This document shows positions 1,872-43,720 of a stretch of 64,000 nucleotides of DNA, piece by piece (position 1 is the stretch's first letter; every line of letters begins with the position of its first letter). The stretch spans positions 2,728,001 through 2,792,000 of the forward strand of contig NZ_CP063845.1 of NCBI RefSeq assembly GCF_021018745.1. The letters are read 5' to 3'. The position numbers and the translations under genes are program-made. The stretch is from Gloeobacter morelensis MG652769. GTDB lineage: Bacteria; Cyanobacteriota; Cyanobacteriia; Gloeobacterales; Gloeobacteraceae. The notes beneath the pieces were generated by a model. That model had not been told where the DNA came from. It saw only the letters and a program-made list of their open reading frames with translations, and made no database searches.

Positions 1872-3398
1872 ATGGGCAACCCCGAACCACGGCCCGGCCT
1901 GCGTCTGGAGGATCTGCGCAAGACCTGCCGCAACGGCCTTGGAGACGGCTTCAACAGCTACGCCCACGCGATGGGCTGGTTCGAGGGCCATCTCTACGTG
2001 GGCACCACCCGCGCCGTGCTGCAGAAGCTCAAGACGATGATTCCCCTGCAGACCGAATTCTGGCCCGTGGACGCCTCGGATCTGACGGCAACGGACTTCG
2101 AGGAGCGCGTCGCCCCCGCCGAGATCTGGCGCTTCGACCCAACAAGCGACCACTGGGAGCGGGTCTTCCGCTCGCCCCTCATCTTGGGATCCCACGGCCA
2201 GCACATCGCCCGCGAGATGGGCTTTCGCTCGCTCACCCTATTTCAGGGCGCTTCCGACAGCAAACCGGCGCTCTATCTGGGCAACTTCTCCCGCGCCCAG
2301 GGACCGGGGGCGCAGATCGTCCGCTCAGAGGACGGCGTGCACTTCGAGGCGGTCTCCGAGGGCGGCCTGATGGGGCTTGCCTTCACGAGCATTCGCCTGT
2401 TGGTGCCCTTCAAGGGCAAACTCTTTACTGCTCCCACCGGCGCCAAGGGCGGCAACCAGAACGCCAGCGGCGTCTGCATGATCTTCGAGAGCGACGATCC
2501 GGCCAGTGGCGTCTGGCGGGCGGTCAACGAACCCGGCTTCGGCGATCCCGGCAACCTGACGGTGTTTATCATGAACACCTTCGCAGAGCACCTGTACGCG
2601 GGCACCTTCAACAACGCCGGTTTTCAACTGTGGCGCACCGATGCGGAGGGCACACCGCCCTACCGCTGGGAGTGCGTGATCGAGGGCGGGGCGGGCCGCG
2701 GCGCCCTCAACCAGGTGGCGGTGAGCTTGATCCCCTTCAAAGGCGCTCTGTACCTGGGCACGGGCATCCAGAACGGCGGCTGCGATCTCAAGAACAACAT
2801 CGGCCCGGCTGGGGCTGAAATTTTGCGGGTGCACCCGGACGGCTCCTGGGATCTCTTGGTGGGCGAGCGGCGCGCCGACGGCCGTTTCCCGGCGAGTGGC
2901 TTTACCGACGGCTTCAACAACGTCCGCAACGGCTATATCTGGCGGATGGGCGCCCACGACGGCTGGCTGTACGCCGGCACGATGAACTGGAGTTCGATAT
3001 TGCGCTACATGAGCCCCGACATCGCCACCAGCGCCAAGGTCCGCCGGATTATCGAACTGATTGGCCTCGACAACCTGGTGGACGAAGAAGGCGGCTCGGA
3101 ACTCTGGCGCAGCTGCGACGGCGAGAACTGGCTGCCGGTGGATCGGCGCGGTTTCGGCAATGTCTACAACTACGGTATCCGCAACATCGTCTCGACCCCG
3201 GCGGGTCTATTTATCGGCACCGCCAACCCCTTCGGTCCCCGTGTCGCTGTCAAAGAAGATGGCCAGTGGACTTACACCGACAATGCCCTGGGCGGCTTGG
3301 AAGTCTGGCTGGGTAACCGCGCGCCTGTCCAACCGGCTGCGGGTATCCCCCAGGCGCTCGTTTCGAGCTTTAACGGTCGGCGCGGACCTCTCTCATAG
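1872..3398 (+). CDS. Predicted beta-propeller protein of unknown function
   Basis: 508 residues with no recognised catalytic motif. A short strand motif recurs at fairly regular spacing: LYVGTTRA, LYLGNFSRA, LFTAPTGA, LYAGTFNNAG, LYLGTGIQNG, LYAGTMNWSS and LFIGTANPFG. Each is preceded by phrases such as 'fkG' or 'dGw' and several are followed by an LWR or EIWR strand. Seven repeats of about 50-70 residues suggest a seven-bladed propeller, related in style to kelch/sialidase-like folds. There is no N-terminal signal sequence; the first residues are MGNPEPRPGLRLEDLRK. ATG 1872 follows the phosphodiesterase stop by 7 bases, so it is the third gene of the carrier-protein operon. It may be a lyase, a hydrolase or a scaffold for the carrier product; the sequence does not decide. 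Confidence 0.7.
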   Translation: MGNPEPRPGLRLEDLRKTCRNGLGDGFNSYAHAMGWFEGHLYVGTTRAVLQKLKTMIPLQTEFWPVDASDLTATDFEERVAPAEIWRFDPTSDHWERVFRSPLILGSHGQHIAREMGFRSLTLFQGASDSKPALYLGNFSRAQGPGAQIVRSEDGVHFEAVSEGGLMGLAFTSIRLLVPFKGKLFTAPTGAKGGNQNASGVCMIFESDDPASGVWRAVNEPGFGDPGNLTVFIMNTFAEHLYAGTFNNAGFQLWRTDAEGTPPYRWECVIEGGAGRGALNQVAVSLIPFKGALYLGTGIQNGGCDLKNNIGPAGAEILRVHPDGSWDLLVGERRADGRFPASGFTDGFNNVRNGYIWRMGAHDGWLYAGTMNWSSILRYMSPDIATSAKVRRIIELIGLDNLVDEEGGSELWRSCDGENWLPVDRRGFGNVYNYGIRNIVSTPAGLFIGTANPFGPRVAVKEDGQWTYTDNALGGLEVWLGNRAPVQPAAGIPQALVSSFNGRRGPLS

Positions 3399-3539
3399 CC
3401 TTTTTCTCAGGGGTAGAAAGCAACTGTAAACCTTTTCTGCGATTGGTTTTGCTCCCCCTGTGTTGCAAGAAGAGGCTGGAAGGCAGGGTTAAATAGTCTC
3501 TACTAAAAATCTTGACAAAACTATGGCTTTGCTTAATTC

Positions 3540-4505
3540 TAACGTCAGTTCGGGATAAGGAAAGGCGGTCCGCCTAGGCTGGGATTAGCACATCACAAGC
3601 CACGGACCGCTCGCTATGCCCAGTCTAGAAGCGCTCTTTTGCCATGTCGATGACTTCTGCCAACGCTTCGAACCGCTCTGGCAGCAACAATTGCTCGACG
3701 ATGGCCTGCGACACAGGCGACGGCCACGCCGACTCTGCCTCAGCGAAATCCTGACGATTCTGATTGCTTTTCACCAATCCGCCTACCGCCACTTCAAGGC
3801 CTTCTACACCGAAATGGTCTGCGCTTACTGGCGAAGCGCTTTTCCTGGACTGGTCAGCTACGCGCGCTTCGTCGAGTGGATGCCCTCTACCCTTATGCCG
3901 CTCAGTGCCTACCTGCGCCACTGTTTTGGCCCCTGCACCGGCATCAGTTTTATCGATTCGACTCCACTTGCCGTCTGCCATGTGCGCCGCGTCCACGCCC
4001 ACAAAGTCTTTGTCGGTCTGGCCGCCTGGGGCAAAAGCTCGGTGGGCTGGTTTTACGGCTTCAAGCTGCACTTGGTGGTCAATGAGCGCGGCGAATTGCT
4101 GGCGATGAGCGTGACGGCTGGGAACACTGACGATCGCAAGCCTGTGCCTGAACTGCTCAAAGACTTGCACGGCAAAGTGTTTGGCGACCGCGGCTACATC
4201 AGCAGCAAGCTTGGCAGGCAATTGCGCGAGGAGCTGGGCATGGCGCTGATCACCAAGTTGCGGCGCAAGATGACCAATCGGCTGATGGTGATGACGGACA
4301 AACTGCTGTTGCGCAAGCGCGGGATCATCGAAGCAATCAATGACCAGTTGAAGAACATTTCGCAGATAGAGCACACCCGCCATCGCAGCGAAGTGAATTT
4401 TTTGGTGAACCTGGTGTGTGGGTTGATTGCCTACTGCCACAAACCGAACAAGCCGTCGGTGGCGTCTGATGCCGACCAGCTCAATGCTTAACCCGAACTG
4501 ACGTT
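3540..4505 (+). mobile_element. IS982-family insertion sequence, apparently intact
   Basis: The single transposase gene at 3616-4491 is bracketed by inverted ends AACGTCAGTTCGGG (from 3541) and CCCGAACTGACGTT (to 4505); the match continues imperfectly inward (about 18 of 21). The sequence TTAATTC stands at 3533-3539 and again at 4504-4510, a likely 7-base target duplication. Because it overlaps the end of the repeat, the exact boundary is ambiguous by 1-3 bases. The element separates the propeller gene from the toxin-antitoxin genes. Intact ends, an intact gene and a matching duplication point to recent insertion. Confidence 0.85.
3616..4491 (+). CDS. IS982-family transposase
   Basis: 291 residues, full length for the family. 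The DDE triad is readable: Asp in [11 protein letters not shown], Asp in VFGDRGYIS and Glu in [12 protein letters not shown]. The family signature ([37 protein letters not shown]) is also present. It catalyses cut-and-paste transposition of its own element. No frameshift or stop interrupts it. It starts at ATG 3616 inside the left end and stops 14 bases before the right end. Confidence 0.93.
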
Positions 4506-4570
4506 AATTCGAGCTTGGGCTTTCAGCTTGAGCTTCGAGAGCATTTGTGTTACAACTACAGTCTAGACAA

Positions 4571-4582
4571 TAAACTAGTTTA
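4571..4582. promoter_or_regulatory. 12-base perfect palindrome, likely operator of the toxin-antitoxin operon
   Basis: TAAACTAGTTTA is its own reverse complement and ends 14 bases before the antitoxin ATG at 4597. A purine-rich ribosome-binding site (GAGGGG) lies between palindrome and start. Phd/VapB-type antitoxins normally repress their own promoter by binding a short palindrome in just this place, so it is the best operator candidate. The role is inferred. Confidence 0.55.
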
Positions 4583-4596
4583 CTTAGAGGGGCACC

Positions 4597-4839
4597 ATGC
4601 GTGAGGTTGGAGCCTTCGAGGCCAAAAGCAAGCTAGGAACCTTGCTCGATTGGGTTGAGGGCGGCGAGGAGGTGCTCATTACCCGACGTGGCAAGGCCGT
4701 GGCGCGTCTGGTGCCTGCTGAAGTCGGCTTTGACCGCGCCAAGGCGCATCGCGCCTTGGAGGGCATCCTTGAGGCGCGACGCGGCATCACTCTTGGTGGC
4801 CTCAAGATTAAAGATCTAGTGAATGAAGGTCGCCCATGA
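4597..4839 (+). CDS. Type II antitoxin, Phd/YefM family
   Basis: 80 residues. The N-terminal 40 match the Phd/YefM DNA-binding fold: MREVGAFEAKSKLGTLLDWV, then GEEVLITRRGKAVARLVP. The remainder (EGILEARRGITLGGLKIKDL) is the helical tail that usually wraps the toxin. It should neutralise the PIN nuclease encoded next and repress the operon through the upstream palindrome. Its stop overlaps the toxin start in ATGA (4836-4839), the translational coupling typical of such pairs. GAGGGG lies 4 bases before the ATG. Confidence 0.9.
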   Translation: MREVGAFEAKSKLGTLLDWVEGGEEVLITRRGKAVARLVPAEVGFDRAKAHRALEGILEARRGITLGGLKIKDLVNEGRP

Positions 4840-5270
4840 CCTTTGTGCTGGATAGCGCGGTCGCGCTGGCCTGGTGTTTCGAGGATGAGCGCACTGATGC
4901 AACAGACACTCTGTTGCGGCAAGCGGCAGCGTCCGGCGCTGTGGCTCCCGCTTTGTGGCCACTGGAAGTGTTGAACGGTTTGGCCATGGGCGAACGGCGC
5001 GGTCGCCTTGATGCCGCCAAGCGAACAAGCCTGGGCGGCTTTCTGCGCGACCTGCCGGTCAGCATCGACGACGAGACGGCGGCACGGGCCTGGGGAGTCA
5101 CAGCGACTCTGGCGGCGCGGTTTCAGCTCACCGTCTATGACGCGGCCTACCTTGAACTGGCGCAGCGGCTGGCGCTGCCCCTCGCCACCCGCGACCGCGC
5201 TTTGCGGGGTGCGGCGGGCAGCCTCGGCGTCGCCCTATTGGGTGAAGCGACCGATGGGAATGCGGCATGA
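4836..5270 (+). CDS. VapC-type PIN-domain ribonuclease toxin
   Basis: 144 residues, a whole PIN domain. Acidic metal ligands are visible at Asp6 (FVLDSAVAL), Glu44 (WPLEVLNGL), Asp102 (TVYDAAYLELA) and Asp120 (LATRDRAL), which is the full VapC set. VapC toxins cleave tRNA or rRNA and halt translation when the labile antitoxin is lost. It overlaps the antitoxin by 4 bases, and its own stop overlaps the start of an integrase stub by 4 bases, so three reading frames were once chained. Confidence 0.92.
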   Translation: MTFVLDSAVALAWCFEDERTDATDTLLRQAAASGAVAPALWPLEVLNGLAMGERRGRLDAAKRTSLGGFLRDLPVSIDDETAARAWGVTATLAARFQLTVYDAAYLELAQRLALPLATRDRALRGAAGSLGVALLGEATDGNAA

Positions 5271-5380
5271 CGGATACGTCGCTTCCCCTCCCCGCCGCCG
5301 GCCGCCTGCTGACGGCCGAGCGGTTCCACCAGCTCGCCAACGTGCCGCCCGAGGTCGAATGGTTCGCCAACCTTGACTGT
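5267..5380 (+). pseudogene. 5' stub of a tyrosine-type site-specific integrase gene
   Basis: The first about 37 residues (LLTAERFHQLANVPPEVEWF followed by ANLD) match the N-terminal SAM-like region of phage-type integrases, which continue with NPRTRRAY. Here the sequence switches after ANLD to CPCHRRIEVSGGEL, which has no integrase character, and no catalytic R..HxxR..Y part follows before the convergent DUF1501 gene. The start overlaps the vapC stop in ATGA. I read it as an integrase deleted after about 110 bases; bases 5381-5516 hold nothing else I recognise. Confidence 0.65.
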
Positions 5381-5516
5381 CCTTGTCACCGCCGCATCGA
5401 GGTTTCCGGAGGGGAGTTGCCGGGAGGGAGGATTGCAGCTTCTCGAACGGTCATTGGGAGCTGCTTCGACCAGCCGTTGAATCGCAGGCTGGGGCATGCC
5501 ACTGTCAGAAGCAGAT

Positions 5517-6755
5517 TCAGGACGAATACATCACATCGGCGCGCTCGGCGGCAAAGCCCGGTAAAACCCGCTGCACCCGGCGATCGTCAAGGAGCAAATG
5601 CCGCTCCAGGACCGTGGCGATCACCGAGCGAAAATCGGTGGTCACCGGCAGATCGCGCCCTTCAAAAAGCCGGTCGGCGGCCAGCCCCGGCCACCCGCCG
5701 TGGATTTTGCCACCTTTGACGGCCCCGCCGGCCAGCCACAGGACGTTGCCGTAGCCGTGGTCGGTGCCGCCGTTGCCGTTCTCGCGCACGGTGCGCCCGA
5801 ATTCGGAGCTCACCACGATCGCTGTGTGCTCGAAGAGCGGCCCCAGTTCGGCGGCGAAGGCGGCAAGACCCTGGCCGAGGGCCCGCAACCTGAGGGCCAG
5901 TTGACCCCGATTGGTGCCCTGGTTGACGTGGGTGTCCCAGCCGCCCAGAGCCATAAAGGCCAGCTGCACCTCCGGATTGCGCACCATCAGTTGGGCCAGG
6001 CGCCGCGCGTCCCCCGTAAAGGCGCTCCCCGGCAGCGCTGCGCCGTTGCTCGCCGTGTCGTCCTCGCCGGTGGAAGATAAACTCTCCTGAATCACCCGGC
6101 GGGCGCTGCGCCCCTCGCGGTAGGCGTGGCTCAGCGGGTCGGAGCCGCTGTAGAGCGCGTCGAAAGCAGCTGCCACCTGGGGCCTGTCGAGCGGCTGGGC
6201 GCGGGTGGCGGCACGGCCGGGAGCCAGGCTCGCCACCGGTTCCGCTCCCGCCAGGATGCGCGGCAGGGTCGAACCCAGATGAATCGCCCGCACCGGGGCG
6301 GTCGTGGCGGGCAAAACGGCGAGCAACCGGTTCATCCAGCCGTCGTCAGCGCCTTTGAAGCCGGGGGCGGCGCTTTCTATCGCTTCTTGGGCGTCGAAGT
6401 GGGAACGGTTGGGTGCAGGTAGACCGCAGGCGTGTACAAAAGCGAGACTGCCCCGCCGCCACAGAGGCAGCAAGGCTTCCAAAGCCGGGTGCAGACCGAA
6501 GTGGCCATCGAGGTCGATAGCTCCGTCCGGCTTACCGGGCCGGGGTACCGCCAGCCGCGGTCGCGCCCGGTAGTAATCCCCATCGCTATGAGGAACAACG
6601 ACGCTCAGACCGTCGAGCGCCCCGCGCAAAAAGACGACCACCAGCCGCCGGTCCCGGTCGGGAGCGGCCTGCACCCGGGCGGCCCAGCCGGTAGTCCCGA
6701 GGGAGATAAGCGAGCCGAGGCCCGCCTGGATCAATGCGCGTCTGGGGAGGATCAT
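5517..6755 (-). CDS. DUF1501 family protein, Tat-exported
   Basis: About 412 residues. The N-terminus MILPRRALIQAGLGSLISLG is a twin-arginine-type signal, ending near VQAAP. DUF1501 hallmarks follow: VVVFLRGALDGLSVVVP, SHFDAQEAIES, GWDTHVNQG, VVSSEFGRTVREN and GTDHGYGN. The family resembles the alkaline phosphatase/sulfatase fold and is almost always paired with DUF1800, as here. ATG 6755 is preferred because AGGTG precedes it by 6 bases; an in-frame GTG at 6764 would add three residues and abut the upstream stop. Cotranscription with the DUF1800 gene is clear from the spacing. The enzymatic role of the pair is not established. Confidence 0.92.
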   Translation of the reverse strand: MILPRRALIQAGLGSLISLGTTGWAARVQAAPDRDRRLVVVFLRGALDGLSVVVPHSDGDYYRARPRLAVPRPGKPDGAIDLDGHFGLHPALEALLPLWRRGSLAFVHACGLPAPNRSHFDAQEAIESAAPGFKGADDGWMNRLLAVLPATTAPVRAIHLGSTLPRILAGAEPVASLAPGRAATRAQPLDRPQVAAAFDALYSGSDPLSHAYREGRSARRVIQESLSSTGEDDTASNGAALPGSAFTGDARRLAQLMVRNPEVQLAFMALGGWDTHVNQGTNRGQLALRLRALGQGLAAFAAELGPLFEHTAIVVSSEFGRTVRENGNGGTDHGYGNVLWLAGGAVKGGKIHGGWPGLAADRLFEGRDLPVTTDFRSVIATVLERHLLLDDRRVQRVLPGFAAERADVMYSS

Positions 6756-6764
6756 CGCCGGCAC

Positions 6765-8333
<1,569 letters not shown>

Positions 8334-8502
8334 TGTCCTTTACCGTCCGGATTTACCGTCCAATCCCGCCCGTTGGACGCTGGGCGTTGCTCTCGGGTTC
8401 AATCCCACCAACCAGTCCGGAGTATTGTTGTGTTGCCTCAGCTACAAGTGCGCTGCAAACGTTGGCTGTACTGTACAAAAGGTGCCCTCTGCAACTTTTG
8501 CG

Positions 8503-11469
8503 ATGCCTTTATTCAGACGCTGGTCGCCTTTGACTTCAAGAAGACCCGCCGCCGGCGCATTCTCGATCTGGACCGGGTGGTTGGGCCTGGGGCTTGCCGC
8601 CACTCTGGCGCTGGGCGCACCACCCGCTGTTGCCCAGGTTGATTTTGCCACTCCCCGGGTCTTCGCGGCGGCCAATGAACCCTACGCCCTGGCCGCAGGC
8701 GACCTCGACAAGGATGGCGACCTCGACGTGGTCACCGCCAACGGTGCCACGGGCAACGTCACGATTCTCAAAAACAACGGCAATGCCACGTTCATCGCCG
8801 CCGACTTCGCCACCGGCGGGCCACCGGTAGCCGTCGCCCTGGGCGATATCGATGGCGACGGCGACCTGGACATCGTCGCCGCCAAAGCGAGCAGCTACCC
8901 GAATTACACCAGCGGCGCGGCCGTCCTCAAAAACAACGGCGACGCCACCTTTGCCGCCCCCGTCGCCACCGCCGTGGGCGACACTCCGGCAGGCATCGCC
9001 CTGGGCGATGTCGATGGCGACGGCGACCTGGACATGGTTAGCGCCAACCGGGGCAGCTACCCGGATTACAACGGCAGTGTCTCGGTGCTCAAAAACAGCG
9101 GCAGCGGCAGTTTTGCCGCTGCGGTCAACTTCGGTGCCGGCACGAACGCCAACTCCGTTGCCCTGGGCGACCTCGACAAAGACGGCGATCTCGATGTCGC
9201 CACCGCCAACGGCGGTTCAGGCAACCTCTCGATTCTCAAAAACAACGGCACCGGCAGCTTTGCCGCCGCCGTGGGCATCGCGACGGGCAGCGCGCCCTAC
9301 GCGGTTGCTGCGGCCGACCTCGACAAGGACGGCGATCTTGACCTGGTGAGCGCCAATTTTGGTTCCGACAATCTCTCGGTGCTCAAAAACAACGGCAACG
9401 CCACCTTTGTCCGCACCGACCTCGCCGTGGCCGACCAGCCCTACGCCGTCTCCGTGGGCGATCTCGACGGCGATGGCGACCTGGACATTGCCGCTGCCAC
9501 CTTCGGCACCGACAACGTCGTATCGATTCTCAAAAACAACGGCAGCGGCAGCTTCGCCGCCGCCACCGCCGTACCCGCCGGTGGCTTCACCACCCGCATC
9601 CTCACAGGCGATCTCGACGGCGACGGCGATCTGGACTTGGCGCTGGCCAATGATTTCACCGTCTATGTGTCGGTGATCAAAAACACGGGCAATGCCATCT
9701 TTGCGAGCACCCCCAACTTCGCGGTGGCCGGTTTTCCGGCCGCTGTCGCCGTGGGCGATCTCGACAAGGATAAGGACCTGGACCTGATTGCCGCCAATCG
9801 ATTTTTGGCGAATGTGACAGTCCTCAAGAACAACAGCGGCACCTTCAGCGACGGCGGCGACTTCGGTGTCGGTGGCTCACCCTACGCCGTCGCCACGGGC
9901 GATCTCGATAGAGACGGCGATATTGACGTCGTGGTAGCCAGGCGCTTTCCCGATGGTGTCGCCGTGTTGTTGGGAAATGGTACAGGCAGCCTCGCCGCTC
10001 CCGTCGGCCTGGCGGCCGGCGCCACCCCCAGTGCTGTCACCCTGGGTGACCTCGACAAAGACGGCGACCTCGACATCGTCGCCGCCAATTTCGGCACCGA
10101 CAATATCTCGATTCTCAAAAACAACGGCACCGGCAGCTTCAGCGCCGCCGCCAATTTTGCAGCAGGCGACAGCCCGATTGCCCTGGTTTTGGGCGATCTC
10201 GATAAAGACGGCGACCTCGATGTCGCCACTGCCAACTTCAATGCCAACAGTGTGGCGATCCTCAAAAACACCGGCAGCGGCAGCTTTGCCGCCCCGGTCA
10301 GTTTTGCGGTCAACCCGGACTCCAGCGTGCCGACCGTTCCCTATAGTTTGGCTGCGGGCGACTTCGACGGCGACGGCGACCTGGATATTGCGACTGCAAA
10401 CGTCTCCGGCAACGTGTCGGTGCTGAAAAACAACGGCGACGGCAACTTCGCCCCGGCGGTGCTGGTGGCTTTGGGAGGCACCCCCAACGGTGCAGTGGCA
10501 GGCGATCTCGACGGCGACGGCGATCTCGACTTGGCGGTAACCAACGGCAGCAACCTGACGGCCTTGCTGGGCAGCAGCGGCACCTTCACCGCGGTGCCCA
10601 ACTTCGCGACCGGCGACAACCCGATTGCTGTGGCTGCGGGGGATTTCGACGGCGACGGCGATCTGGATGTAGCGACGGCGAACTACATCTCCGATAGCAT
10701 TTCGGTACTCTCGAACACGACCTCGCGGCTGACGCCGGAGGATATCCTCTGGCGCAACACCACCACCGGCCAGAACACCGCCTGGCTGATGAAGGGCACG
10801 ACTTTGCTTGCTACCCTCGCGTTGCCGGCGGTGGGCGATCCGAACTGGCGCATCGGCGGCAGCGCCGATTTTACCGGCGACGGCCAGCGGGACATCCTCT
10901 GGCGCAACGCCGCCCTCGGCATCAACCGCGTCTGGATTCTCAACAACGGCGTCTACAGCAGCTTTGTCGACCTGCCGGGGGTAAGCGATCCCAGCTGGCA
11001 GGTGCAGGGGGTGCGCGATTTTACCGGCGACGGTAGAGCGGATATTCTCTGGCGCAACGGAGCCACCGGGGCGAACACCATCTGGCGGATGGACAGAACC
11101 ACGTTCGTAGCGAGTGTCGCACTGCCGGCGGTGGGGGATCTCAACTGGGCAATGGGGGGTACGGGAGATCTCACCGGTGATGGGAAGACCGATATTCTCT
11201 GGCGCAATCAGGCCACCGGAGCGAACACCGTCTGGCAGATGAACGGTACCGCCTTTGTAGCCAGCATCGCTCTTGCGAGCGTCTCGGATCTCAATTGGCG
11301 CATCGGCGGCAGCGGCGACTACAACGGCGACGGCAAGGCGGATATTCTCTGGCGCAACGGAGCCACCGGGGCGAACACCGTCTGGTTGATGGACAGAACC
11401 ACCTTTGTCTCCAGCGCTCCGCTCACGTCGGTGGCTCCCAGCGGCTGGCAGATCCAGGGACCGCGCTAA
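8503..11469 (+). CDS. Large secreted FG-GAP/VCBS repeat protein
   Basis: 988 residues from ATG 8503; the frame is open further upstream, but that stretch would overlap the divergent gene and lacks protein character. A basic N-terminus and hydrophobic segment (WLGLGLAATLALGAPPAVAQ) form the signal peptide. About 14 repeats follow, each with a calcium-loop motif such as GDLDKDGDLDVVTAN plus a LKNNGxGSF strand, giving two or more seven-bladed propellers. The C-terminal about 250 residues switch to five 50-residue repeats beginning DILWRN.ATG.NT.W.M and ending FTGDGKA. A role in adhesion or calcium-dependent surface display is inferred. The repeats are also visible in the DNA, so copy number may vary between strains. 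Confidence 0.9.
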   Translation: MPLFRRWSPLTSRRPAAGAFSIWTGWLGLGLAATLALGAPPAVAQVDFATPRVFAAANEPYALAAGDLDKDGDLDVVTANGATGNVTILKNNGNATFIAADFATGGPPVAVALGDIDGDGDLDIVAAKASSYPNYTSGAAVLKNNGDATFAAPVATAVGDTPAGIALGDVDGDGDLDMVSANRGSYPDYNGSVSVLKNSGSGSFAAAVNFGAGTNANSVALGDLDKDGDLDVATANGGSGNLSILKNNGTGSFAAAVGIATGSAPYAVAAADLDKDGDLDLVSANFGSDNLSVLKNNGNATFVRTDLAVADQPYAVSVGDLDGDGDLDIAAATFGTDNVVSILKNNGSGSFAAATAVPAGGFTTRILTGDLDGDGDLDLALANDFTVYVSVIKNTGNAIFASTPNFAVAGFPAAVAVGDLDKDKDLDLIAANRFLANVTVLKNNSGTFSDGGDFGVGGSPYAVATGDLDRDGDIDVVVARRFPDGVAVLLGNGTGSLAAPVGLAAGATPSAVTLGDLDKDGDLDIVAANFGTDNISILKNNGTGSFSAAANFAAGDSPIALVLGDLDKDGDLDVATANFNANSVAILKNTGSGSFAAPVSFAVNPDSSVPTVPYSLAAGDFDGDGDLDIATANVSGNVSVLKNNGDGNFAPAVLVALGGTPNGAVAGDLDGDGDLDLAVTNGSNLTALLGSSGTFTAVPNFATGDNPIAVAAGDFDGDGDLDVATANYISDSISVLSNTTSRLTPEDILWRNTTTGQNTAWLMKGTTLLATLALPAVGDPNWRIGGSADFTGDGQRDILWRNAALGINRVWILNNGVYSSFVDLPGVSDPSWQVQGVRDFTGDGRADILWRNGATGANTIWRMDRTTFVASVALPAVGDLNWAMGGTGDLTGDGKTDILWRNQATGANTVWQMNGTAFVASIALASVSDLNWRIGGSGDYNGDGKADILWRNGATGANTVWLMDRTTFVSSAPLTSVAPSGWQIQGPR

Positions 11470-36633: not shown

Positions 36634-36697
36634 GGGTCGATTCTTGAGCACGGGCGGGCGTCGGGGGTTGGCCCCCGGCGCCCGCTTTAACTATCCA
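36463..36697 (+). repeat. 235-base direct repeat, copy 2
   Basis: Partner of 29661-29895. It includes the terminator and the last 11 bases of the convergent gene 36687-38024, so this copy is at the native position and copy 1 carries the transplanted tail. Confidence 0.92.
36654..36688 (+). terminator. Terminator copy 2, between convergent genes
   Basis: Same 14-pair stem and TTT tail as at 29852-29886. It now separates the SBBP remnant from the end of the membrane-protein gene. Confidence 0.75.
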
Positions 36698-38024
36698 TGC
36701 CGTTGCGACGGATATAGTCGCGCCGCGCCTGCTCCAATAAAGCAACGATCAGTTGCTGGGCATCCTGCACCGTGCCGTGCTCGCGCCACTCGGCGCTCAA
36801 GGTGCGCAGCAGCTTATCGAGCAGTTGACGGGTGAGCCTTTCGCCTTCGGGGTCGGCTTTGAGCACGCCGTTGGCGGCACTGTAGGCGGCGTTGAGCGTG
36901 ACGTTGACTAGACCGCTGGTCAGCCGGGTGGGTAAAGGCAACGACTGTTTAATCGAATGGGCCAGCAGTTGTTCCAGTTCGGGGCGCACCTGGGGAAGCA
37001 CTTCTTTGACGACGATTTCGGTCTGCTCTTTGACAAAGCCATCGATCGCCGTGGGCGGGTCGTCGGCAGAACGGGGAGCCACCTGGGTAGCCCGGGGCAG
37101 CGCGGCGGTCAAGTCGGCGGTGCGCACCACATCTTGCACCTGGGTGAGGGCTTTGACCACCACCAGGTCGGTCACCTCATCGGCAATCGCCATCGAGTAG
37201 CGGTGGATGAGACCGGCAATCGGAGAGGGAAAGACGCCCAATCGCTCCAATCGATCGCCGTAGGTGAAGACGCGCAGCAGCGCCAGCCAACCGAGGTGCA
37301 CCCCGGGAATCAAGTTGACGAGGGGCACCAGATTGAGCACATCGAAACTGTTTTCAGAAAAGCAGCGCTGCCAGCTCCAGCGCGGGTGGTTGCGGTAGGT
37401 GACGAAGGTGCGCAAGACCAGTTCCACAGCAAAGACGACCATAAACCACAGGTCGATGCGCCGGAAGTACCAGTCGACAAATTCGCCGTCCTCACCGTAG
37501 TTGCGGTAATAGTTGACCGCAAACAGAGGCCGCAGCTTCTTGTCAAAAAAATCCAGCTGAGCTGCCTGTCGCGCCGGGGTCATGTTCTGCTCGCTCCAGA
37601 AGCGCAAAAACGACTGCTTGGAGGAACTGTCGCCCACGTGGCGGCGGATGCGGTTTTTGATCCGCTCCAGCGTGCCCTGCTTGCCCGCCAGCTCAAAAGG
37701 GCTGTCATCGACGATCTGGGCGCTCAACGTCCGCAAAACCGGCAGCAGTGCCGCTTCGCGCGTGGCGTCCCCGGCGTCCGCAGCCGCTTTGTAGGCATCG
37801 ACCGTCCGCAGGTACCGCTCGGTGATCCGGTGGGGTTCGATACCCTTCATCGGGTCATACAGACGGACCAGCTCGGGCACCCTGAGCACATAAAAATCGC
37901 GCAGCTGTACATAGCTCAGATCAAAGATCACCCAGACGAGGTTGACGGTGGCCACCGCCAGAAAAAGCCATTCGAGCGGCCAGAACAGGACACCGCGCCA
38001 GGAAACATTGGGTTTGGTCGCCAC
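36687..38024 (-). CDS. Conserved cyanobacterial membrane protein of unknown function
   Basis: 445 residues from a GTG at 38024. Hydrophobic segments at about 12-36 (LFWPLEWLFLAVATVNLVWV), 202-225 (IDLWFMVVFAVELVLRTFVT) and 250-275 (VLNLVPLVNLIPGVHLGWLA). The second, with ELVLRTFVTYR, resembles an S2/S3 segment of voltage-gated-type channels, but no pore loop is evident. Large soluble helical regions flank them, including a C-terminal part (about 300-445) rich in charged residues. It converges on the SBBP remnant through a shared terminator. No function assigned. Confidence 0.75.
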   Translation of the reverse strand: MATKPNVSWRGVLFWPLEWLFLAVATVNLVWVIFDLSYVQLRDFYVLRVPELVRLYDPMKGIEPHRITERYLRTVDAYKAAADAGDATREAALLPVLRTLSAQIVDDSPFELAGKQGTLERIKNRIRRHVGDSSSKQSFLRFWSEQNMTPARQAAQLDFFDKKLRPLFAVNYYRNYGEDGEFVDWYFRRIDLWFMVVFAVELVLRTFVTYRNHPRWSWQRCFSENSFDVLNLVPLVNLIPGVHLGWLALLRVFTYGDRLERLGVFPSPIAGLIHRYSMAIADEVTDLVVVKALTQVQDVVRTADLTAALPRATQVAPRSADDPPTAIDGFVKEQTEIVVKEVLPQVRPELEQLLAHSIKQSLPLPTRLTSGLVNVTLNAAYSAANGVLKADPEGERLTRQLLDKLLRTLSAEWREHGTVQDAQQLIVALLEQARRDYIRRNGMDS

Positions 38025-38134
38025 GGGGAGCCATAGGCAGAGTTCGGCAGTTCCAATTTAAGGGTAAGAACGCATGCATCAATCCCCCGGCAGTCGGGTT
38101 TGCTTCCCGGCGCCCGTCGTCAGTGCCGGTACAG

Positions 38135-39703
38135 TTATGCACCCTGGCCGCTTTCGTGCTTCTTGGTTGTGCAAGCGGAAGGCGTGCCGGGTTGATCGCC
38201 CCGGGCGCGCAGTGCCTCGAGCGCCATCGCCTTTAAGGCGTTTCGATCGATTTTGCCGGTGGGGCCGGCGGGCAACCGATCGACAACGGTGACACTCTCG
38301 GGCCACTGTTCTGTGCCCAGGTGCGCCCGGGCAAATTCGAGCAACCCCTGGCAATCCACTGCCGCATCACCCCGCCCAAGCACCACAAAGGCCCGCATCG
38401 CTTCGCCGGACCCGCGCTCCGGTATGCCGACAACCCCCGCCTGCCGCACCGCCGGATGTTGGTACAGCACTCCTTCCACCTGCACAGGAGAAACCAGTTT
38501 GCCGCGGCAATGGATGACCTCCGATTTGCGGGCGAAAAACCAGTAGTAACCGTCGGCGTCTCGATAAGCCAGATCGCCCGTGTAAAACCAGCCTTCTCGA
38601 ATCGCCACCGCCGTGCGGTCGGGATCCTGCCAGTACCCCGCCGTCATGCTGCCGCCGCGTACCCGGATTTCGCCAATCGTCTCCGGCGTGTCGATCGTTC
38701 GGGCGTCGTCATCCACCAGGGAGATCTCCATAGCCCAAATCGCAACACCGATCGAGCCTGCTTTTTGGGGTCCTTCGGGTGGATTCATCGCGTAGATTTG
38801 CAGCTCCGTCATGCCGCACCCTTCGGTGATCCCGGTGCCGAAGCGGGCCTAGAAGCGCTCTTGAAGCACAACCGGCGTAGCCTCTCCGGCTGAGAAACAA
38901 AATTGCAGCGCCCGCAGGTCGTGGTGCACGGCCTCGGGGGTATTGACCAGCTCGTTGTACAGTCCTGGAAACCCGTAAATTTTGGTTGTTCTGTAAGTCT
39001 CCATCGCTTGCAGGGCCTGTGCGGGCTCGAAGTGGGGCAGCAGGACGCAGGTGGCGCCGACGGCATGAAACGGCAGCACCTGGGAGCCAAAGCCGATCAG
39101 ATAACAGACCGGCAACATGACCAGCGTGCTGTCCTGGGCGTCGATGCCGATCTGGCGAATCTGGTTGATGGTGGCCTGCTCCAGGCTTCGGCGCGTATGG
39201 AGGACACCCTTGGGCTGTCCTGTCGTCCCGGAAGTGTAAAAAATCGCGGCGGGATGGTCGGCCGCCAGATCCGGCCACGCGGGCGGCGGGCCTTCGACCG
39301 CCAAATGTGCGATCCACCCTTGCGCCCCCAGCGATTGTGTCAAGTGCACCTGCGCAGGCAACGGCTGCGCAGCCGTTGCCTGCTGATATTGCCCGTAGAG
39401 GCAGGGCTCGGCGATCAGAACTTGGGCACCGCTATGGTTCACCACGTAGCGGACCAGATCCGCCCCGAAGCGTATATTGATCGGAACTGCAACGGCACCG
39501 ATCTTGAAGCAAGCGTAGTAACACAGCACAATCTCGGGGCAGTTCGGCATCAAAAAAGCGACGCGATCACCGGCCTGAACGTTCCACTTCAGCAACGCGG
39601 TAGCCAGGCCGTCAACAAGTTTATCCAGTTGCTCATAAGTATAGGATTCTTCGCCAAATACGAGAGCAGTTTTTGACTGCAAACGAGTACCGGCTTTGTC
39701 CAT
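38135..39703 (-). pseudogene. AMP-dependent acyl-CoA synthetase/ligase interrupted by one in-frame TAG
   Basis: The reading frame runs from ATG 39703 (MDKAGTRLQSKTALVFGEES) to 38135, about 522 codons, broken only by TAG at 38851-38849. Around it the protein reads VVLQERF-stop-ARFGTGITEGCGMTELQIYA, exactly where intact ANL enzymes have ER(F)xARFG.xI.EGYGMTE. The AMP-binding motif FYTSGTTGQPKGV and the C-terminal motifs GWFYTGDLAYRDADGYYWF and PAGPTGKIDRNALK are intact. One substitution such as CAG to TAG explains it. It starts 31 bases after the GLIC stop, so it was the second gene of that operon. The substrate class (fatty or aryl acid) is undetermined. Confidence 0.85.
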
Positions 39704-39734
39704 GAGTATTGAACAGCATAACGGGCTCCTTGAG

Positions 39735-40814
39735 CTAAAATCCAAAGAAAAGAAATGCCAGAATAATATTCGCAAGTAAGAATACGACGGGAAACGCGAT
39801 GCGAGAGGCGCGTGTAATCGATGCCGCCCTGGCAGACCGGCCCTCGACTTTTAGATAATGCTGAACGGTGACTTCAATAACGGCCACAAAATAAAACAGG
39901 TAAATCATAAAAATAATTGCCCCCGTGTAGGTCATATAGGGGGTCTTCGGAAGATTGGTTTCTACCAGAATATTGAAGGCGATGTGGGCGATAAGTGTCG
40001 AGACCACCAGCGTTACATTCGCTTCGTAGGAAGTAGACCAGAAGGCGGTCCAGGAGATAAACAGAATGAACAGCATCGGCAAAATGATGTTGGGAATATA
40101 CGAAAAATACTGACGGGAAATCCGCAACTGGTAGTCCAGTTTCGATTCAAGTCTGTCTTCTAGAGCGAAGTTTGCAGGTTTCACCACGGCCGTAAAGTTT
40201 TCGATATCCCATCCCGTCAAGAACACATCGTCGTTTTTGCCCACTTTTTTGGGGTCGACTGCAAGCACGATATTGCGAGTGTCGACCGAACGGACAATCA
40301 AGTAAACGTGTAAAATCTGCGAATCAAAAGGATAGCGGCGAAAATCCAGCGGCGAGAGAAATCGGGCAGAGAAGCGTTCCAGATACTGTACCGTCCCGTC
40401 CGGGCTTACCGAAATATCGACCACATCGGCATCGCGGGCATTTTCAACATTGACAAAGTGGATCTCCGGTATCCAGATCGCTTCGGGTTCGTAGGTTTTG
40501 ACGCGAACGCCGCTGCGGGCCGGATCAAACGCCAGGCGCCTGTCCTTCCAGCTCAAACTCAAAAAGGCATTCACTTTGAAGGTTTCTTCTTTGTCGTCGA
40601 GGCCGTAGCACTCGATAAGATAGATGCCCGTGTTCACGGTGAGTGGTTCATCGGCAATAGGCGGGGGCGACGGAACCCTATCCTGGCCCCAACCCGGTGG
40701 GGAAAACCACAACAAACCAATCTGTACCACCGCAACTGCAGCCATCGGTTGCCATAGCATACGACTTGCAGCGATGGACTCTGAAAGTCTGGGCCGCCAG
40801 CCGGTCGGGAACAT
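39735..40814 (-). CDS. glvI: GLIC-type proton-gated pentameric ligand-gated ion channel
   Basis: 359 residues from ATG 40814, with GGAGG 9 bases upstream; MFPTGWRPRLSESIAASRML and WFSPPGWGQ form the signal peptide. The extracellular beta-sandwich, the Cys-loop position without cysteines (FRRYPFDSQ), pre-M1 ISRQYFSYIPN, four membrane helices and the TM2 pore (YEANVTLVVSTLIAHIAFNI) match the G. violaceus channel as I remember it. The residues I equate with proton-sensing Glu35 (DKEETFK), Asp122 (PFDSQ), His127, Arg192 and His235 are kept. Differences include ECYG for ECYS, KEET for KAET, PEIHF for PEIRF, SARFL for SARVL and DPKKVG for DLEKVG. It forms cation-selective homopentamers opened by low external pH. 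Cotranscribed with the ligase pseudogene. Confidence 0.97.
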   Translation of the reverse strand: MFPTGWRPRLSESIAASRMLWQPMAAVAVVQIGLLWFSPPGWGQDRVPSPPPIADEPLTVNTGIYLIECYGLDDKEETFKVNAFLSLSWKDRRLAFDPARSGVRVKTYEPEAIWIPEIHFVNVENARDADVVDISVSPDGTVQYLERFSARFLSPLDFRRYPFDSQILHVYLIVRSVDTRNIVLAVDPKKVGKNDDVFLTGWDIENFTAVVKPANFALEDRLESKLDYQLRISRQYFSYIPNIILPMLFILFISWTAFWSTSYEANVTLVVSTLIAHIAFNILVETNLPKTPYMTYTGAIIFMIYLFYFVAVIEVTVQHYLKVEGRSARAASITRASRIAFPVVFLLANIILAFLFFGF

Positions 40815-40989
40815 CCCGGCGGACCTCCTGGTTGAAAATCGATAGGTCAGATATACCTCAATTCGCACTTAAAGCCAGTCCGCAGGACCAGATCTTTGAC
40901 ATTGTTAACCTGGCCAGGGTTTGCGCTCCCAAAACAAGCGAAGTGGTCCATTTCAGCCCGCTTCCCAGAGGTAGACCGTACAGGACGGG

Positions 40990-42303
40990 TCAGGCCGATT
41001 CGGGCTTGGGCAGCGAACTGGGCAGAATCAGCAGCTCGGAGGTGGAGCGCTTCTCGACCATCTCGCGGGTGATCACGCACTTGCGGATGTCGGCGCGCGA
41101 GGGTACCTCGTACATCACTTCGAGCATCAGTTCTTCGACAATGCCCCGCAGGGCGCGCGCCCCGGTTTTGCGCCGGAAAGCTTCCTGGGCAATGGTCTTG
41201 ATCGCATCGGGCTCGAAGACCATCTCGACGCCGTCCATGCGCAGCAGGCGCTGGTACTGTTTGAGCAAGGCGTTCTTGGGTTCGGTGAGAATCTCGATGA
41301 GGGCTTCCTCGTCGAGGGGTTCGAGCACCGCCACCATCGGAATGCGGCCGATAAATTCGGGGATCAGACCAAATTTGACCAGGTCGTCGGGTTCGAGGGC
41401 CTTGAGCGATTCGACCAGACGCTGTTCGCGCTTCTGGGGTTCGCCCGCCTGCACAAAACCCATCGCCCGCTTGCCGATGCGCTGCTCGACGACGCGCTCG
41501 AGGCCGACAAACGCTCCTCCGCAGACAAACAGGATGTTGGCCGTGTCGATCTGAATATATTCCTGGTAGGGATGCTTGCGCCCACCCTGGGGAGGAACAT
41601 TGGCGACGGTGCCTTCGAGCATCTTGAGGAGCGCCTGCTGGACACCCTCGCCCGATACGTCGCGGGTGATCGAAGGGTTCTCGGACTTGCGGGCGATCTT
41701 ATCGATTTCGTCGATATAGATAATGCCGCGCTGGGCGCGCTCGACCTCGCCGTCGGCCACCTGCAGCAACCGGAGCAAAATGTTCTCGACGTCTTCACCC
41801 ACGTAGCCCGCCTCGGTGAGGGTGGTGGCATCGGCAATGGCAAAGGGCACATCGAGTAAATCGGCCAGGGTCTGGGCCAAAAGCGTCTTGCCGCAGCCGG
41901 TGGGGCCGATGAGCAGAATGTTCGATTTTTGAATTTCGACCTCGTCACCGCTTTCTTCGAGCTTCGAGCTGAGGCGCTTGTAGTGGTTGTAGACCGCCAC
42001 CGAGAGGATTTTCTTGGCCTCCTGCTGACCGATGACGTGCTGGTCGAGGTAAGACTTGATCTCCTGCGGCTTGGGGATCTTTTTGAGGGAAGTGTCCCGG
42101 CGGTTGGAGCGCGAGGCTTTGACCTTGGTCGGTTGGGGCTGGGGCTGGGTCGCCCCTTCAAACAGCTCCTCGTCAAGGATTTCGTTGCACAGTTCGACGC
42201 ACTCGTCGCAAATGTATACCCCCGGCCCGGCGATGAGCTTTCGAACCTGCTCCTGGGACTTGCCGCAGAAGGAGCATTTGAGGTGAGAGTCGTACTTGGG
42301 CAT
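40990..42303 (-). CDS. clpX: ATP-dependent Clp protease ATP-binding subunit ClpX
   Basis: 437 residues from ATG 42303. N-terminal zinc finger Cys10/Cys13/Cys32/Cys35 ([14 protein letters not shown]), Walker [15 protein letters not shown], Walker [15 protein letters not shown], sensor and arginine-finger regions near [15 protein letters not shown], the substrate pore loop within [17 protein letters not shown], and the ClpP-binding loop region RIGKRAMGF. It unfolds tagged proteins for ClpP. It follows tig after 31 bases on the same strand; clpP, which often sits between them, is absent here. Confidence 0.97.
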
Positions 42304-42334
42304 GGGGCAGCCTGGGTGTTGATAAATCGAGGTT

Positions 42335-43720
42335 TCAGGAGTTGGGTTGCGCCTCGGGCTCGGTGGCCCCGGCGGCAACTTCGGGGGGAGCGTCTTCGCC
42401 CGAGCCCGGCTCAATCGCCTCACCCGGCAAAGTCAACTCTATTGTAGAGTGCTCCGCGAGCCACTCCAAAATCTTCTCCGTAAGCATTTCTTCGCGAGCA
42501 AATTCGGCCAGGGCCTGCTCGGAGACATCCTCCTCCAGTTCGCTGCGCAACTCGGCAACGCGCGCAGCCACCTGTTCCTCTTCGACCACGATATTTTCGG
42601 CGCGAGCCACTTGTGCCAGGGCCAAGGTGCGCTTGAGGCGATTTTCGGCGTCGACTCTAAGCGTTTCGCGTACCCGGGGCATGTTCTCCTCAGTGAAGAT
42701 GCGGCTGGGGTCGATGCCCTGCTGTTGGAGGTTGCGGAAGCTCTGCTCGGCCAGAAACTGTACTTCGCGGTTGACCAGCGTCTCAGGCAAGTCGACGCTC
42801 GTCTCAGCCACCAGCGCCTTGATGATGGCGGTGTCGCGGTTGGCGCGGGTCTTCTCCGCCGCCTGCTCGCGCTGCTGCTGCTCCAGAAACGCGCGCAGTG
42901 CTTCGAGGGTCTCAAATTCGCTGATGTCACCGGCAAAGTCGTCGTCGAGGACGGGCAGTTCTTTGATCTTGAGATCTTTGAGGGTGACGGCGAATTTGGC
43001 GTCGATGCCCGCCAGTTCCTGCTGCGGATAATCGTCGGGAAAGCGCAATGCAAGCTCGGTGCTCTCACCAATTTGCATTCCGATGATCCCCTCGGTGAAG
43101 CCGGCGATGAGCCGACCCGGCAGCAGTTCGACTTCAAAATCGGTGGCTTTACCCCCGACTATCTCGCTGCCGTCCGCCGCCTTGGTGCCCGCAAAGTCGA
43201 TGACAGCGGTGTCGCCGACCTCAGCCGCCCGACCCTCGACAGGAACGAGCACGGCGCGCTGCTCGCGGTACTGCTCGAGCTGGTCATCCACCTGCTTGGC
43301 TTCGTAGGGCACTTCGCTATAGCGCACCGTCAGGCCGGTGTAGGTACCCAGCTGCACCTCCGGCTGCACATCGACGGCGGCTTTGAAGCTGAGCGGTTCT
43401 CCCGGCTGGTAGCGGCCGAGCAACTCCTCGAACGAATCGCGCAGCTGCAGGTTGCCCAACGAAGCAATCGACTCCTGTTCGATCGCCTCTTTGAGGGAGC
43501 TGTCGATCAGATTTTCGAGCGCCTGCGCCCTGAGGCGCTCCTTGCCGTAGAACTGCAGCACCAGCTGGCGCGGGGCCTTGCCGGGGCGAAAACCGGGGAT
43601 GCGGGCGGTGCGCATGGTGTCGCGCACCAGTTTCTCGTAGGCTTGTTTGGATTTTTCGCCCTCGACCTCGACATTGAGGCCCATCTGGGAGCGCGGGAGC
43701 TTCTCTTGCGTGACTTTCAT
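42335..43720 (-). CDS. tig: Trigger factor, ribosome-associated chaperone and peptidyl-prolyl isomerase
   Basis: 461 residues from ATG 43720 ([20 protein letters not shown]). The ribosome-docking loop is [12 protein letters not shown] near residue 45. The FKBP-like domain follows ([39 protein letters not shown]), then the helical substrate cradle to about 430 and an acidic Pro/Ala-rich tail ([20 protein letters not shown]). It folds nascent chains at the exit tunnel. First gene of the tig-clpX operon, divergent from grpE, which forms a protein-quality-control cluster. Confidence 0.97.

Follow-up and report, generated by a model that had tools for sequence, protein, structure and literature searches.

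A close GLIC ortholog in Gloeobacter morelensis as a natural variant at the carboxylate-coordinating residue Arg77

The proton-gated channel GLIC of Gloeobacter violaceus (Glr4197; UniProt Q7NDN8; PDB 6hja, 4hfi and 3eam) is a leading structural model for neurotransmitter receptors. Its cellular role is unknown (PMC4795631). A full scan of its titratable residues identified Glu35 as the key proton sensor; the D145N-E147Q pair was without effect, and removing the hydroxyl of Ser29 gave no more than a tendency to higher pH50 (PMC5760087). In the intersubunit site that binds carboxylates, Arg77 coordinates every co-crystallised carboxylate (PMC7336382). In the apo crystal structure the same residue forms a bridge with Asp88 of the adjoining subunit (PMC10859675), an inter-subunit contact also present in the open cryo-EM structure at pH 4 (PMC10997623). 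Changing Arg77 to alanine abolishes most mono-carboxylate inhibition of GLIC, such that 64-71% of the current is left with 1 mM acetate, butyrate or crotonate, compared to 10-12% in the wild type (PMC10859675).

The window studied here is the whole 64,000-nucleotide stretch of the G. morelensis MG652769 chromosome from position 2,728,001 to 2,792,000 of contig NZ_CP063845.1. An original prediction, made from the letters alone, placed a natural variant of GLIC at 39735-40814 and gave no strand. These coordinates are correct, and the gene occupies the minus strand, where one intact open reading frame runs from an ATG at 40814 to a stop at 39735 and encodes 359 amino acids. The plus-strand reading of the interval contains stop codons and was dropped. 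A GTG start at 40868, which would give a 377-residue protein, was discarded because only the ATG at 40814 fits the known protein start and is preceded by an AGGAGG sequence.

39735..40814, minus strand: coding sequence of the GLIC ortholog, stop included (open reading frame; 95.0% identity over 359/359 residues to 6hja_A and the G. violaceus gene; Pfam Neur_chan_LBD, E 1.5e-23)
40824..40829, minus strand: AGGAGG, Shine-Dalgarno-like, 9 nt 5' of the ATG (direct sequence reading)

The encoded protein has the features expected of a pentameric ligand-gated ion channel (pLGIC), with a ligand-binding domain and a four-helix transmembrane domain supported by Pfam and by a full-length match to GLIC. 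PF02931 (Neur_chan_LBD) scores over its cut-off, and PF02932 falls slightly under it (E 2.4e-5; 25.2 bits against 28.1). The Pro-loop motif YPFD (residues 119-122) and the pre-M1 Arg192 are both in place; F/Y-P-x-D is the Pro-loop motif of this channel superfamily (PMC4795631). The top PDB match is full-length GLIC (6hja_A, 359/359 residues, E 2.5e-227), well outside what chance would give, and alignment with the G. violaceus protein is gap-free, with 341/359 residues identical (95.0%) and 18 substitutions. In the sister genome G001, which is of the same genus and was taken as G. violaceus PCC 7421, the reciprocal closest match is the GLIC gene, which sits at the same position downstream of tig-clpX. 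GLIC has just one other match in the genome that contains the window, at 20% identity, and the best homolog beyond the genus, among the 59 nearest genomes searched, is 41% identical (L006). Judged by sequence, the gene is a genuine, intact and close GLIC ortholog, carried by another species of Gloeobacter. A search of the open-access literature found no study of this G. morelensis ortholog.

That lone second match is itself a remote pLGIC of 355 amino acids (L017:5679-6746; G000:C1, about 3.608 Mb). It is about 20% identical to GLIC, has ELIC as its best PDB match (E 2.3e-11) and carries Neur_chan_LBD (E 6e-11). Searches of the other three Gloeobacter genomes recovered no ortholog of it; the only match in them is GLIC itself. 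ELIC and other prokaryotic pLGICs share the Pro-loop and pre-M1 arginine with the window protein, and they are not detectably closer to it than GLIC is.

Numbered on the mature protein, so that Glu35 corresponds to residue 77 of the precursor, the changes from G. violaceus to the window protein are K-33R, V-1G, M4R, S6P, P7S, S29G, A34E, V57A, R77H, V110F, T125I, I128V, L146P, E147K, S164N, S283G, Q284R and P285S. The signal peptide carries two of them, the extracellular domain 13 and the M3-M4 loop three.

40689..40814, minus strand: signal peptide, precursor residues 1-42, with K-33R and V-1G (crystallised mature GLIC chains start at precursor residue 43)
40602..40604, minus strand: codon 29, Gly in the window, Ser in G. 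violaceus, Gly in the outgroup (alignment; Ser29 hydroxyl tested in PMC5760087)
40587..40589, minus strand: codon 34, Glu in the window, Ala in G. violaceus; adjoins Glu35 and is acidic in five other GLIC-like proteins (alignment)
40458..40460, minus strand: codon 77, the carboxylate-coordinating pivot, His in the window, Arg in G. violaceus and the outgroup (alignment; PMC7336382, PMC10859675)
40248..40253, minus strand: Loop F codons 146-147, L146P and E147K (alignment; D145N-E147Q without effect in PMC5760087)
39738..40112, minus strand: transmembrane domain, mature residues 193-317, helices free of amino-acid change (M1-M3: 0 nonsynonymous, 14 synonymous)
39957..40031, minus strand: M2 pore-lining region, approximately residues 220-244, same as in G. 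violaceus (comparison with 6hja_A and G001)
39834..39842, minus strand: M3-M4 loop codons 283-285, SQP to GRS (alignment)

Every motif quoted in the original prediction is real (window/G. violaceus: KEET/KAET, PEIHF/PEIRF, SARFL/SARVL, DSQILHVYL/DSQTLHIYL and DPKKVG/DLEKVG), and the pairwise alignment that it called for recovers all of its listed differences among the 18. They do not reflect a mis-remembered reference, because G001 encodes a protein identical to the GLIC reference. The prediction did not include K-33R, V-1G, M4R, S6P, P7S, S29G, V57A, S164N, S283G, Q284R or P285S.

Another origin for the 18 differences, faulty sequencing or assembly of what is in fact a G. violaceus genome, has a negligible probability. 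Nothing in favour of it was found, and the codon pattern refutes it: 43 synonymous versus 18 nonsynonymous codon differences in the GLIC gene and 61 versus 1 in clpX. Moreover, the two chromosomes differ in length (4,921,229 versus 4,659,019 bp), and an independent genome, the outgroup introduced below, has seven of the mature-protein differences as well.

The gating residues and the pore are conserved, in line with the original prediction. Every published gating or proton-sensing residue that was checked is identical, including E26, D32, E35, D122, R192, E222, H235, E243 and H277, and the same is true of Y28, E82, D86, D88, H127 and T158. The published E35 pocket (P113, L114, F116, F156, T158, P247) and the D32-R192-D122 cluster are shared by the two proteins. 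Helices M1, M2, M3 and M4 are likewise all identical, which bears out the expectation of an unchanged TM2 pore. Very probably the ortholog forms a homopentamer that is selective for cations and opens in response to external protons, its pore and coupling machinery being those of G. violaceus GLIC. The window protein is almost certainly a functional channel, as far as sequence can tell; its predicted function is a cation current at low external pH, and its pH50 would lie near that of GLIC.

Over the whole gene, dN/dS between the window and G. violaceus is 0.116, and a ratio of about 0.12 means that the window gene is under purifying selection. Substitutions number 13/192 in the extracellular domain and 3/125 in the transmembrane domain, a contrast that is not significant on its own (p = 0.11). 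Comparison of M1-M3 with the remainder gives 0/89 versus 16/228 (p = 0.008), a contrast chosen after the data were seen. Gene conversion or identical DNA behind the unchanged membrane domain was ruled out, since that part of the gene has an ordinary level of synonymous divergence (dS 0.26). Such numbers also suit the view that the substitutions are neutral drift and that the channel is equivalent to GLIC in both pH and carboxylate response. With the low dN/dS, the concentration of changes in loops, the N-terminus and the beta-sandwich with none in the helices, and the tolerance of GLIC to most single titratable mutations (PMC5760087), this view has a little under an even chance of being right. 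It must accommodate R77H, which hits the residue whose alanine mutant affects mono-carboxylate modulation most (PMC10859675).

The direction of change can be assessed with the best outgroup, a GLIC homolog from the metagenome-assembled genome (MAG) Aphanocapsa lilacina HA4352-LM1 (L003) that is 79.5% identical to the window protein. It sides with the window, not with G. violaceus, at 9/18 sites (including 29, 34, 57, 110, 125, 146 and 285) and with G. violaceus at three (7, 77 and 164), and the other six have no assigned direction. By this outgroup G. violaceus has the derived residue at nine of the 18 sites; as the polarity comes from a single close outgroup (dS about 1), individual sites may be misjudged. 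The comparison shows S29, V57, V110, T125, L146 and P285 of G. violaceus GLIC as putatively derived. The outgroup protein has G29, E34, A57, F110, I125, P146 and S285 like the window protein, and it differs by retaining R77 and by D86Q, D88E and E243A.

Those three residues make the outgroup gene (L003:6001-7050) a natural variant of its own. In GLIC, E243A reportedly reduces proton sensitivity, and for this reason the outgroup channel would be a good second natural variant.

Residue 34 is Glu or Asp in the window protein, the outgroup and four more distant cyanobacterial homologs. Within the GLIC-like set it is Ala in G. violaceus alone, and it is Ser in the remote second channel of the window's genome. 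Given this distribution, the KEET/KAET difference most likely arose in the textbook channel, with Ala34 probably derived and an acidic residue the common state. The difference beside Glu35 is real, as the original prediction held, but its direction appears to be reversed.

The same reversal affects the proposal that A34E and S29G, next to Glu35, retune proton sensitivity as an adaptation of G. morelensis. A34E does place a carboxylic acid next to the proton sensor, and the pH50 of GLIC tended to rise when the neighbouring hydroxyl of Y28, S29 or T158 was lost (PMC5760087); both changes adjoin the sensor and could shift the pH50 of the window protein. However, E34 and G29 match the outgroup and so are not changes of this species, and any retuning would have been in G. 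violaceus. Adaptive retuning here is therefore unlikely. The open-access GLIC studies consulted report no functional assay of residue 34. More broadly, a real ortholog with substitutions close to Glu35 and in the beta-sandwich of the extracellular domain has been confirmed, but that these positions tune pH sensitivity is not established: the 18 differences are confounded with one another, and published mutagenesis showed little effect at two or more of the positions.

R77H has a different history. The outgroup retains Arg77, and by the same polarity the histidine, which is seen in one assembly, is a change on the window's own lineage. It is the window-lineage change with the best functional link. 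Both carboxylate pockets are otherwise unchanged (R85, Y102, E104, R105, R133, N152, E177 and E181), so that of the four residues of the complete intersubunit site the window protein keeps R105, E181 and N152 and has His for R77. This site is a modulator site and not a defining feature of GLIC orthology. Arg77 is a carboxylate-coordinating pivot and not an established proton sensor, and R77H bears more on modulator pharmacology than on proton sensing.

Because Arg77 is His, altered carboxylate modulation would be the main functional difference from GLIC. When the pH is low, His77 in its protonated form may do part of the work of arginine, which would leave carboxylate inhibition weaker and more pH-dependent; we infer that the carboxylate response of the window protein is altered and possibly pH-dependent. 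R77H could also be neutral, because a protonated histidine may do the job of arginine. The published GLIC studies searched in the open-access literature contained no test of R77H itself.

The neighbourhood of the gene suggests a further layer of history. The order tig-clpX-GLIC is common to the window, G. violaceus and the outgroup.

40990..42303, minus strand: clpX, upstream neighbour, whose stop codon bounds the diverged block in the outgroup genome (Pfam zf-C4_ClpX, AAA_2)
38135..39703, minus strand: acyl-CoA ligase-type gene split by a lone in-frame TAG, 38849-38851 (the two halves each match Pfam AMP-binding)
36687-38024, minus strand: conserved membrane-type protein of 445 amino acids, beyond the acyl-CoA ligase-type gene (no Pfam or NCBIfam match)

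The acyl-CoA ligase-type gene downstream of GLIC is in decay, since it has the TAG here, is truncated by a deletion of approximately 980 bp in G. violaceus and is absent in the outgroup. The 445-residue protein was found in 4/4 other Gloeobacteraceae genomes tested. In G003, a single-contig 4.7-Mb Gloeobacter genome, clpX and the gene for this protein lie far apart, and GLIC was not found there.

Outgroup positions 3082-8762 correspond to 36690-43720 of the window. Synonymous divergence of the outgroup from both the window and G. violaceus is 0.09-0.21 in tig and clpX and about 1.0 in GLIC. In 100-bp steps, identity drops from ~96% to ~70% exactly at the clpX stop codon and recovers shortly before the gene for the 445-residue protein. 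So sharp a break suggests a swap by recombination, and on the simplest reading the GLIC cassette of the outgroup would have been replaced by a diverged allele through exchange in conserved flanks. A chimeric MAG contig could also produce the jump. The gene for the 445-residue protein has a different pattern, with the window copy as the outlier in synonymous divergence (dS 0.42 and 0.39 versus 0.116), which points to more than one exchange in the region.

The two histories can be combined in a speculative and rather improbable proposal. The carboxylate pivot would now be a titratable histidine, bringing protons and carboxylate metabolites together on one residue with pH-dependent modulation, and GLIC cassettes, from clpX to the following gene, would be exchanged between Gloeobacter lineages.

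The window gene is an ordinary ortholog and a useful natural variant of a known channel. At 95% identity and with an unchanged membrane domain, it isolates a few extracellular differences. Ala34 and Ser29, near the proton sensor of the model protein, would be lineage-specific residues and not the family norm. Carboxylate modulation has its hub at Arg77, where the ortholog provides a natural experiment, and exchange of GLIC cassettes, if true, would mean that the properties of this channel are under changing selection.
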